Source of the DNA: Thalassospira povalilytica
Lineage (GTDB): Bacteria > Pseudomonadota > Alphaproteobacteria > Rhodospirillales > Thalassospiraceae
Direction of reading: 5' to 3'
NCBI RefSeq assembly: GCF_002844235.1
Contig: NZ_PGTS01000001.1
Location: 434,001 to 498,000 of the forward strand
Length of the DNA: 64,000 nt
Shown piece after piece: positions 55,077 to 58,713 of this stretch. The position numbers and the translations under genes are program-made. Numbering within the stretch: the stretch's first letter is position 1; each line of letters opens with the position of its first letter. Below the pieces are notes generated by a model, which saw only the letters and a list, made by a program, of their open reading frames with translations, did not search any database and was not told where the DNA came from.

Positions 55077-55115
55077 TGCCCGGATTCAGATTCCCTGATA
55101 GGTTGCAGTGATCCT

Positions 55116-55127
55116 CCTCATATGAGG
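55116..55127. promoter_or_regulatory. CCTCATATGAGG palindrome before the first PAS receptor
   Basis: A perfect 12-base palindrome 97 bases before the start of the chemoreceptor gene, next to GGATAGG/CCTATCC blocks. A near-identical element (CCTCAAATGAGG) lies before the second receptor at 56844-56855. Confidence 0.5.
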
Positions 55128-55224
55128 ATAGGTTTACTTAGTTCTTTTGTATAGTATCCTATCCTAATGCATCGGGCTGGTTATGGCTAAGTCGTTTTCC
55201 TGATGCTGAGTGAGAGGACATCAC

Positions 55225-56715
55225 ATGGGACTTTTCGACTTATTCAAGCGTGGTGACGCCCACGCCGCTGCAAGAACGCTTGATGCACTGGAACAATCGC
55301 TGGCGGTTATCGAGTTCGATTTGCAGGGCAAGGTTTTGCGCGCAAACAAGAACTTCCTGTCGGTCATGGAATACGAGCTGTCCGAGATCGTCGGCAAACC
55401 GCACGCGATCTTTGTGCCTGAAGACATCCGCAAGAGCCCGGATTACGAGACCTTCTGGTCCGATCTGCGGGCGGGGTCGTTTAAAAGTGCCGCATTCCCG
55501 CGAATCACCAAATCAGGTCGCCAGGTCTGGATCGAGGCCACCTATAACCCGGTGCGCGATCGCAAGGGCAAGGTCGTCAAGATCGTCAAATTTGCGTCTG
55601 ATATCACCAAGCGTCAGGAAATGCTGGCGAGCTTTGAAGGCAAGGTAAATGCCATCAACCGCAGTCAGGCTGTCATCGAGTTCGATCTGAACGGTACGAT
55701 CCTTGATGCCAATGACAATTTCCTGTCGGTTATGGGCTATCAGCTGTCGGAAATTGTCGGCAAGCATCACCGTCTTTTTGTCGACCGTGATTATGCCAAG
55801 AGTCAGGAATATGTCGATTTCTGGCGCGAACTGGCCAAGGGCAATTTCTGTTCGCAGCAATTCAAGCGGTTTGCCAAGGGTGGCAAGGAAATCTGGATCG
55901 AGGCATCCTATAACCCGATCTTTGATGCCAATGGCGTGCCTTACAAGGTGGTCAAATACGCCATTGATATTACCGATCAGATCACGCTTCTGACCGATCT
56001 TAAAAAGATGATCGACAACAATTTCGGCGAAATCGATCGCAGTCTGAGCGACCTTGATCAGCGCTCCAGCGATGCCTATTCGTCCTGCGAAAAAACGTCG
56101 GCCAACGTCCAGACTGTTGCCGCCGGTGCCGAACAGCTTGCCGCATCGATTTCGGAAATCTCGCGCAGCATGGCAGAAGCCCGCGCGACCACCGATCAGG
56201 TGTTCGAGAAATCGATTGCAGCTGGTGCATCGACCGAAAAAATGAACGAAGTGGTCGCCGCCATGGGCAGCATCATCGATGTGATCCAGGACATTGCAGG
56301 TCAGATTAACCTGCTTGCGCTGAATGCGACGATTGAATCGGCCCGCGCCGGTGAAGCCGGCAAAGGTTTTGCCGTTGTCGCCAACGAGGTCAAAAGCCTT
56401 GCCAATCAGGTCGCCAAGGCAACCGAACAGATCACAAGCGAGATCGAAGGCGTGCAGAGCATTTCGGTCGAAGTATCCGATGTGCTTGGTGCAATCCGCA
56501 ACGAAGTCGAAGGTGTGTTGAACAATGTGACCACCATTTCGTCAGCTGTTGAGGAGCAAAGTGCGGTGACCCAGCAGGTGTCAAGCAGCATGCAAAGCAT
56601 GGCAACATCGGTCGAGCAGTTTTCAAGCAGCGTCAATTTCATCCGCGATGCATCGTCCGCAGTACAAAGCAATGTCGGACGGACCCGCGAAGCGGCCCTG
56701 GTACTGGCGCGCTAA
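55225..56715 (+). CDS. Soluble PAS-PAS methyl-accepting chemotaxis protein
   Basis: A 496-residue cytoplasmic chemoreceptor with no membrane segment. Two similar PAS domains (about residues 20-125 and 142-250) begin [20 protein letters not shown] and [19 protein letters not shown] and end in WIEATYNPV / WIEASYNPI. The MCP coiled coil follows; the signalling tip [20 protein letters not shown] with [12 protein letters not shown] (residues about 359-394) is intact. It should signal to CheA/CheW. The PAS ligands may be redox or oxygen cofactors, unproven. The ATG at 55225 has GAGAGGA upstream. Confidence 0.93.
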
Positions 56716-56843
56716 CGGGCATATCGGCTTTGGCAATGTTGCCAAAGACCATCGATCTGAAAGGGGTCATGACGGGAAACTGTCATGGCCCATTCTTTTT
56801 TGGGATGAGGCTCAAAATCCTATCCATAGGTATGTAGTTTACT

Positions 56844-56855
56844 CCTCAAATGAGG
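56844..56855. promoter_or_regulatory. CCTCAAATGAGG element before the second PAS receptor
   Basis: Five-base arms around two central bases, in a block (CCTATCC ... CCTCAAATGAGG ... GGATAGG) that resembles the upstream region of the first receptor. It is 85 bases before the start. Confidence 0.45.
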
Positions 56856-56940
56856 ATGTCTGGATAGGGGGCTGGGCGCTATATTCGCCGCAACGAATAT
56901 TTGCAACGGCGCATAAAGTTGCTTCTCAGGAGATCCGGCC

Positions 56941-58293
56941 ATGAATTCAATCATTTCCATTCTTCGCGAAAATATCGATGTCTCGGACGAGCTGATCGCT
57001 GCGATAGATGCATCATTCGCTGTGGTGGAGTTTGATCTGGATGGCACAGTGCTGAACGTCAATGAAAGCTTCATGAAGCTGACCGGCTATGAAGAGGATG
57101 AGGTTGTCGGACAGCATCATTCGATGTTCCTGCCAGAAGAAATGCTTAATGGCCCGGATTACGAAATGTGCTGGGCGGATTTGCGGGCGGGCAAGCGCAA
57201 ACAGGTTGAAGTACCGTGCATCACGAAATCCGGGGACCGTATCTGGGTCGAGGAAACCTATGCCCCGGTGCGCAACAGCGATGGCGAACTGGTCAAGATT
57301 GTGCGGTTCGGGGTGAATGTCACGGAACGCCATGAAATGGTTGCCGATCTGCAAGGCAAGGTCGATGCAATCCGTCACAGCCACGCCATCGTCAAATTTG
57401 ACGCCAATGGCATCATCCTGAATGCCAACCGGCATTTTCTGGCGGCGATGGGCTATGATCTTTCTGAAGTGGTCGGACAGCATCACAGCATGTTCGTTGG
57501 CGAGGAATATGCCAAAAGTTCGGCCTATCAGGCGTTCTGGCGGTCGCTTGCCAATGGCGAGTCAAAAATACGCCAGTTCAAATATTTCGGCAAAGACGGA
57601 CGGGAAGTCTGGTTCGAGGCGACCTATAGCCCGGTGCTTGATGTCTATGGCGAGGTGATCAAGATCATCAATCTTGCTGTGGATATTACTGACGAGGTCA
57701 GCGAGCTGATTGGCTTGAAATCAACGCTTGAGGTCAATTTTGCCGAGGTCGATGAACATATCGAAGGTGTTGATCGCAAATGCGAAACCGCCGAACAGAT
57801 GTTCCGTCAGGCCCAGGCCCATCTCGAAGCCAGCAATATCGCATCGGGTGTTCTGGTCGGATGTGTTGGTGAAACGCTGGAACGCATGACCGAATTGCGG
57901 TCGGTCTCCGACCATGTTTTCGATACGGTCATCGAAGGCGATGTGGCGGCGGTCGCGCTTGAAAATGCGGTCGACAGGTTGCGTGACGGTGCCGGGGAAA
58001 ATTCCGAACTTGCAGAACAGATCGATAATCTTGATGAATGCGTTACCGAAAGTTCGCGGATCCTGACGTCATTGCGTCTTGAACTGAAGGAGATGCTGAA
58101 CCGGATGGCGGTGGTGTCGCTGGCGATCGAGAAACATGGCGATGTTACCGGTCAGATGACCAGTGAAATGCACGGCATTCAGACATCGCTTGATGCCGCC
58201 CAGAACGCGATTGCAACCATCGGTCAGTCGACAGAGGAAATGGCCCTTACCATCGGCCGGTCGCGGGAAGTATCCGTCGTATTGGCGCGCTAG
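56941..58293 (+). CDS. PAS-PAS protein with degenerate chemoreceptor module
   Basis: A 450-residue paralogue of the preceding receptor. Two PAS domains are well kept (SFAVVEFDLDGTVLNVNESF, SHAIVKFDANGIILNANRHF, WVEETYAPV, WFEATYSPV). After about residue 255 it keeps a helical, Glu-rich coiled coil and the same C-terminal ending (GRSREVSVVLAR against [12 protein letters not shown]), but the signalling tip (the ALNA-x-IE-x-ARAGE...GFAVVA core) is absent; in its place is unrelated sequence such as LERMTELRSVSDHVFDTVIE. It probably cannot contact CheA/CheW. It may form mixed oligomers with the first receptor or signal otherwise. Confidence 0.85.
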   Translation: MNSIISILRENIDVSDELIAAIDASFAVVEFDLDGTVLNVNESFMKLTGYEEDEVVGQHHSMFLPEEMLNGPDYEMCWADLRAGKRKQVEVPCITKSGDRIWVEETYAPVRNSDGELVKIVRFGVNVTERHEMVADLQGKVDAIRHSHAIVKFDANGIILNANRHFLAAMGYDLSEVVGQHHSMFVGEEYAKSSAYQAFWRSLANGESKIRQFKYFGKDGREVWFEATYSPVLDVYGEVIKIINLAVDITDEVSELIGLKSTLEVNFAEVDEHIEGVDRKCETAEQMFRQAQAHLEASNIASGVLVGCVGETLERMTELRSVSDHVFDTVIEGDVAAVALENAVDRLRDGAGENSELAEQIDNLDECVTESSRILTSLRLELKEMLNRMAVVSLAIEKHGDVTGQMTSEMHGIQTSLDAAQNAIATIGQSTEEMALTIGRSREVSVVLAR

Positions 58294-58319
58294 TCGGGCG
58301 AGGCAGCGCGGCAATGAGC

Positions 58320-58350
58320 GGGACAGGCATGATCGTGCCTGTCCCTTTTT
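58320..58350 (+). terminator. Terminator of the PAS receptor pair
   Basis: GGGACAGGCA pairs with TGCCTGTCCC around a 6-base loop, followed by TTTTT. It sits 26 bases past the second receptor's stop and before the convergent CsaA-like gene. Confidence 0.88.
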
Positions 58351-58368
58351 CATACGGGCGGGCATTGC

Positions 58369-58713
58369 CTAGAACAGGCGCGCCCCATTGGGGACATCCT
58401 GATCCGGGCGGATCAGAACGATGCCCTTGTCGTCTTCGCCGTCGGGGAAGCCCAGACACAGGAATTCGGACATGAACGGGCCGACCTGTTTTTTCGGGAA
58501 ATTGACCACACCGGCGACCTGGCGGCCGATGAGTTTTTCCGGGCTGTAATATTTGGTGATCTGGGCGGATGTTTTCTTGGTCCCGATTTCCGGGCCGAAA
58601 TCGACCCAAAGTTTCAGGGCCGGGCGGCGGGCTTCGGGGAATTCCTGGGCGTCGATGACAGTACCGACGCGAATATCGACTTTCAGAAAGTCATCAAAAC
58701 TGATTTCGCTCAC
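58369..58713 (-). CDS. CsaA-like tRNA-binding domain protein
   Basis: A 114-residue protein made only of the OB-fold tRNA-binding domain also found in methionyl- and phenylalanyl-tRNA synthetase tails. FDDFLKVDIRVGTVIDAQEF, KLWVDFGPEIGTKKTSAQIT and LIGRQVAGVVNFPKKQVGPF agree with CsaA; the length matches. CsaA binds tRNA and has been linked to protein export as a chaperone in Bacillus; its role here is unproven. Confidence 0.9.
   Translation of the reverse strand: MSEISFDDFLKVDIRVGTVIDAQEFPEARRPALKLWVDFGPEIGTKKTSAQITKYYSPEKLIGRQVAGVVNFPKKQVGPFMSEFLCLGFPDGEDDKGIVLIRPDQDVPNGARLF

Follow-up and report, generated by a model that had tools for sequence, protein, structure and literature searches.

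A maintained, tipless relative of a soluble PAS-PAS chemoreceptor in Thalassospira

The window analysed here, a 64 000 nt stretch of the Thalassospira povalilytica genome, contains a pair of related genes between fpr and csaA. The first, R1, encodes a soluble PAS-PAS chemoreceptor; the product of the second, R2, is descended from chemoreceptors but has lost the hairpin tip that contacts CheA and CheW. Comparison of R2 across the genus supports its being a working gene in which the tipless form is maintained by selection. The reading favoured here, which we consider somewhat better than an even bet, is that selection maintains R2 as a soluble PAS sensor that is no longer coupled to CheA and signals via its hairpin to another partner. 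The features of the locus, in window coordinates, are as follows.

55115..55128, strand not assigned: palindrome TCCTCATATGAGGA upstream of R1 (sequence scan)
55225..56715, + strand: R1, 496 aa, soluble chemoreceptor of PAS-PAS type whose MCP signalling domain is intact (ORF list, Pfam)
56230..56469, + strand: R1 hairpin tip region, residues 336–415, mostly missing from R2 (alignment, conservation)
56764..56791, + strand: R1–R2 intergenic stem-loop, terminator-like, with T run (consensus match only)
56843..56856, strand not assigned: palindrome TCCTCAAATGAGGA upstream of R2, a perfect match to TCCYCAWWTGRGGA
56941..58293, + strand: R2, tipless PAS-PAS protein, 450 aa (ORF list, R1 alignment, Pfam)
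56998..57333, + strand: R2 PAS domain 1, residues 20–131 (Pfam, AlphaFold2)
57358..57696, + strand: R2 PAS domain 2, residues 140–252 (Pfam, AlphaFold2)
57697..57990, + strand: R2 hairpin arm 1, residues 253–350 (AlphaFold2, conservation)
57871..57945, + strand: best conserved R2 hairpin stretch, residues 311–335 (column conservation)
57991..58002, + strand: predicted new 4-residue turn of R2, residues 351–354, replacing the receptor tip (AlphaFold2)
58003..58290, + strand: R2 hairpin arm 2, residues 355–450 (AlphaFold2, conservation)
58320..58345, + strand: terminator-like stem-loop after R2 (consensus match only)

Loss of the receptor tip in R2

R1 comprises 496 aa counted from an ATG (501 aa from the upstream GTG at which the ORF list starts it), and has a PAS-PAS-MCPsignal architecture in Pfam, with PF00015 at E 4e-32. 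It is most conserved in the tip, where 69 of 80 columns are invariant among the nine species in which R1 and R2 are both intact. An initial annotation took R2 for a copy of this preceding receptor. Pairwise alignment bears this out, with 39 % identity and a shared C-terminal ending, GRxRE...VLAR, and Pfam finds both PAS domains in R2. The same annotation held that the tip contacting CheA and CheW was gone while the coiled coil around it was kept. This is also what the alignment indicates: the gaps total 46 residues, every one of them falls within R1 columns 331–415, around the hairpin tip, and the predicted hairpin is otherwise intact.

PF00015 was not among the families matching R2 at E≤10, and was not found in three further short R2-type proteins; the long form from Thalassospira lohafexi (G005, protein P0026) matched it at E 0.86 and 9.9 bits, the cut-off being 34.6. 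A regular expression for the tip motif matched none of the 13 R2-type genes, but all 19 intact receptors at the locus and the 3' piece of a split R1 in G020. Chemoreceptor methylation sites follow the consensus [ASTG]2xx[EQ]2xx[ASTG]2. This pattern was absent from the hairpin arms of all 13 R2 proteins and present in 9/9 R1 proteins and 9/10 single receptors. The other soluble PAS-PAS receptors of the locus thus share with R2 the PAS pair, the arms, the C-terminal end and the promoter element described below, but differ from it in keeping the tip (19/19 intact) and the methylation consensus (18/19). Since R2 lacks the two MCP-defining features tested, the PF00015 tip domain and the methylation consensus, it should not be filed as an MCP.

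A long antiparallel helical hairpin, itself an MCP feature, is nevertheless predicted for R2. The AlphaFold2 model, for which 16 R2 sequences were used, has helices at residues 250–350 and 355–449 and a turn at 351–354 (mean pLDDT 85.7, pTM 0.44). As the two helices are joined by a short turn, the arms are kept and the end of the hairpin has apparently been re-closed. Judging from the turn positions, the loss is nearly symmetric, with about 23 residues removed from each arm. Comparison of the model with PDB folds returned PAS/LOV domains and hardly probed the hairpin, and no NCBIfam equivalog reached its cut-off against R2. By eye, among the flavin-contact residues given in one report (PMC12442639), His and Trp are kept in the R2 PAS region and Asn is not; because these residues are only partly kept, no PAS cofactor is claimed.

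Conservation and origin of the tipless form

R2 is present in 13 of 29 Thalassospira genomes. Twelve of the proteins are 450 or 451 aa long and the thirteenth, from G005, has 499 aa. All R2 forms fall in one clade, with 100/100 support, whether the tree is built from full-length sequences or from the PAS domains only. Aligned with each other, the 12 short forms show a single gap column in 451, and no gap in the 198 columns of the hairpin, 42 of which are invariant. The best kept stretch of the hairpin is residues 311–335, with 9/25 columns invariant in the nine species that have R1 and R2 intact.

Over 14 pairs, dN/dS (NG86) is 0.09–0.18 for R2 as a whole and 0.08–0.24 for the hairpin; six of these pairs have dS >1, which makes their ratios rough, and in the eight closer pairs the range is 0.09–0.15. 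The second PAS domain is the most constrained part (0.02–0.17, 14 pairs). R1 gives 0.03–0.08 in 11 pairs; R2 evolves faster, with dN/dS about 0.13 vs 0.06, and is thus under weaker constraint. When changes were placed neutrally, the minimum of 200 placements exceeded the observed number of amino-acid differences in each of six R2 pairs (23, 33, 42, 48, 78 and 200 against 12, 15, 23, 24, 41 and 107). A pseudogene is rejected on dN/dS and the neutral-placement test.

The reading of R2 as a decaying remnant, for which its faster evolution than R1 and its absence from four genomes inside the clade that carries it (G006, G009, G003 and G024) might be cited, seems most improbable, given that none of the 13 genes contains a stop or frameshift, dN/dS is low and the promoter element is intact in 13/13. 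Frameshift decay or erosion of the orthologues, against which the initial annotation had set its proposal of selection on the tipless form, was therefore not what was found: occurrence in a single clade, purifying selection, a hairpin free of indels in the 12 short forms and a conserved upstream element all agree with that proposal. R2 might alternatively serve as a ligand or cofactor sink, or as a structural protein, with a hairpin of no signalling role. This would fit the strong constraint on the second PAS domain, but the invariant hairpin columns and the lack of indels in 12 sequences are hard to square with a mere spacer, and we regard it as improbable.

The species tree was built from rpoB, fpr and csaA (rpoB was missing for G020, G021, G024 and G025, and csaA for G013); the split G020 R1 was left out of the trees, and four of seven outgroup loci were dropped, having no long open frame carrying the tip motif. 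All R2 carriers fall in one 17-species clade (ultrafast bootstrap 93; some inner nodes down to 40). Within it, ten species have both genes (R1 being split in G020), three have R2 only (G002, G015 and G005), two have R1 only (G006 and G009) and two have neither (G003 and G024). In G020 (L045), an 88 %-complete genome, the frameshift that splits R1 beside an intact R2 may be an assembly error. In the protein tree, R2, R1 and the receptors of G006 and G009 lie on one side of a branch with 98/99 support, which fits a duplication in the ancestor of the 17-species clade; a group of only R2 and R1 is poorly supported (69/69). An origin of R2 by duplication of R1 in that ancestor is thus supported by the trees.

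The long G005 form (L049) branches first within R2, the other 12 forming a group with support of 82/73 in the full tree and 98/97 in the PAS-only tree. It has no recognisable tip, and its model shows a receptor-length hairpin with a predicted turn at 376–381, where confidence is low. The simplest account of the short forms would be one deletion after G005 split off, and the G005 form is possibly an intermediate. Its extra segment scored 9.5 bits against a receptor-tip profile, a value reached by 2/2000 plain and 4/2000 pattern-kept shuffles; the turn regions of seven tested short forms gave scores reached by 41–239/1000 plain and 101–439/1000 pattern-kept shuffles. Whole-hairpin scores were 11.5 bits for the short form P0012 vs 10.7 for G005 (reached by 1 and 0 of 1000 shuffles, respectively). 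As the whole-hairpin scores of some short forms match that of G005, the profile is a weak instrument, and the view of the extra segment as a decayed tip is no more than suggestive.

These results bear on whether R2 still has a tip that has diverged beyond recognition, which had been raised as a possible objection. The receptor-length hairpin and segment score of G005 lend it some colour, and it may describe that form. It is disfavoured for the 12 short forms: 45–46 residues are missing from them relative to R1, and the turn regions tested among them do not stand out from shuffles. For R2 at large we consider it very unlikely.

The R2 hairpin was not found outside Thalassospira in a protein search, in 199 genomes drawn from the order or in a species-genome collection, each of limited reach. 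Searching proteins with the hairpin alone gave 11 matches, all of the R2 family, and missed seven known members (P0001, P0003–P0006, P0013 and P0014). Classification by eye of 121 proteins, the best 120 of 1104 matches plus P0121, gave 89 with a tip, 18 of the R2 family and 14 that appear truncated, shifted or joined to another output. An R2 hairpin profile matched 34 of the 199 order genomes. All 198 profile positions were matched only in 10 R2 carriers (E≤1e-91), G005 was matched as two strong pieces, and the remaining matches reached E 2e-15 at best with partial coverage, among them receptors in which the two arms matched separately. Scanning the species-genome collection with one R2 sequence returned nothing; scanning with the hairpin alignment, by two peptide patterns only, returned nine confirmed loci, all in Thalassospira. 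The licence-limited literature searched yielded no description of a tipless receptor family, of the Thalassospira receptors or of the palindrome.

Relationship to R1 and the shared palindromic element

The initial annotation proposed that R2 acts as a partner or decoy, for example by dimerizing with R1 and tuning it. Selection on the tipless protein is supported; the specific role with R1 is not. Co-occurrence of R1 and R2 in the 17-species clade is not significant (Fisher p 0.54). In the three R2-only genomes, no R1-like match was seen elsewhere: the other matches at E≤1e-20 were ≤35 % identical over the full length, or were proteins of other length. R2 is under the same constraint in close pairs where one member has R2 only, with dN/dS of 0.13 (G015/G021) and 0.10 (G002/G014); both values mix branches with and without R1, and G005 has no close pair. 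R1 as an obligate partner is ruled out by the R2-only species G002, G015 and G005.

Among the very close species G004, G012, G023 and G026, R1 alleles (55225–56715 and its relatives at L042–L046) have apparently been exchanged by recombination, and R2 has not. Over the six pairs, dS is 0.53–1.17 for R1 vs 0.15–0.22 for R2; in four of these pairs it is 0.13–0.18 for fpr and 0.11–0.35 for csaA. Forcing the four R1 genes together was rejected (p-AU 3e-38). Between G004 and G026, G012 or G023, identity per 250 bases is 0.78–0.90 across R1 and 0.90–1.0 across R2. Comparison of G012 with G022 shows the reverse, R1 being the more similar gene, which would follow if these two share an R1 type.

A broader proposal is that R2, by way of its PAS domains or its hairpin arms, forms heteromers with R1 or other PAS-type soluble receptors and tunes them as a dominant-negative, spacer or adaptor. 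The PAS domains and arms of R1 and R2 are homologous, adjacency in 10/13 carriers and the shared promoter element make co-expression likely, and CetB-type PAS proteins are described as acting via a separate tip-bearing protein (PMC2628428; PMC12442639). As far as R1 is concerned, the three carriers without it, the undiminished constraint in pairs that include them and the apparent exchange of R1 without R2 tell against such a role, as does geometry: with R2 arms shorter by about 23 residues, the two bundles would end at different heights. As 10 of 13 carriers keep R1 next door (split in G020), an optional interaction is possible, as is a role with other receptors; the proposal as a whole has an appreciable but clearly lesser chance of being correct.

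The palindrome TCCYCAWWTGRGGA is perfect upstream of R2 in 13/13 genomes, with its centre 79–94 nt before the start codon. It precedes every R1, R2 and single receptor at the locus (29/33 perfect, 33/33 with ≤2 mismatches), a level reached by 0.8 % of shuffled upstream regions. Terminator-like stem-loops flank R2, which is therefore likely, though by no means certain, to be transcribed as a unit of its own; three such sites were found vs 1.5 expected. No sigma-70-like promoter was detected in 56600–58400.

Seven genomes contain 28 TCCYCAWWTGRGGA sites in total, two to six each, and none for the reversed control. Ten lie at the R1/R2 locus and 18 elsewhere (L086–L103). Of the latter, six are upstream of receptor genes and seven of response-regulator genes (12 of these 13 by scan and L101, where the listed frame starts before the site, by eye), two precede a small open frame and for three the scan gave no gene within 500 nt. 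Pfam confirms receptor or response-regulator domains in 13/13 of the genes concerned. The receptors, found in relatives, include several transmembrane ones; three of the response regulators carry EAL, each in another species, one carries HDOD and three are receiver-only. At several sites the flanking genes are divergent, and the target could be the other neighbour. The distribution suggests that receptors and response regulators form a small putative regulon marked by TCCYCAWWTGRGGA. The small open frame, seen in two species, encodes a protein of 120–123 aa (L093:1592–1954 and L097:1544–1915, both on the − strand) that appears cupin-like by eye; neither copy had a Pfam match at E≤1e-5.

Possible output of R2 and its precedents

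In the favoured reading of R2 as a CheA-independent PAS sensor, neither the kinase-contact tip nor the methylation consensus survives in the protein, which has kept the PAS pair and a predicted antiparallel hairpin with a new turn. It would share control by the palindromic element with R1 and, in relatives, with transmembrane receptors and response regulators. On sensing an internal cue, of redox, oxygen or metabolite type, the PAS pair would alter the hairpin, which could not drive CheA and would instead bind another output protein through residues 311–335 and the facing residues 370–397. Candidate outputs are a response regulator or a c-di-GMP enzyme of the same putative regulon, on the model of BdlA; another receptor is a less likely candidate. 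R1 is not required as a partner.

BdlA and CetB offer partial precedents. According to published reports, BdlA of Pseudomonas aeruginosa activates the phosphodiesterase DipA and recruits RbdA (PMC4047105; PMC9769550). It is likewise a soluble PAS-PAS protein with a chemoreceptor-type domain (PAS-PAS-TarH), and R1 has this architecture in Pfam, with two PAS domains and a signalling domain. Compared by description, BdlA keeps its TarH domain and undergoes cleavage between the two PAS domains, whereas R2 has no MCP domain match. CetB of Campylobacter and Magnetospirillum resembles R2 in that it is a PAS protein with no kinase-contact tip of its own (PMC2628428; PMC12442639); it is, however, small and acts with CetA, whereas R2 combines two PAS domains with a 198-residue hairpin. 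The neighbours of R2 are fpr, R1 and csaA, and no CetA-like transducer lacking a sensor domain lies beside it.

That purifying selection acts on all but the tip, the most conserved part of the receptor, suggests a use for the PAS pair and hairpin that does not involve CheA. More tentatively, and with the balance somewhat against it, R2 may represent the conversion of a chemoreceptor into a CheA-independent sensor, in which the tip was excised, the hairpin was re-closed by a new turn and the coiled coil became a new output domain. If this is true, a stepwise route may be visible, from R1 through the G005 form, with its full-length hairpin and unrecognisable tip, to excision in 12 species. With the long-form relative, and with related species that carry R1 only, R2 only or both, the R2/R1 set constitutes a natural system for studying how receptor-like proteins gain non-chemotaxis outputs.
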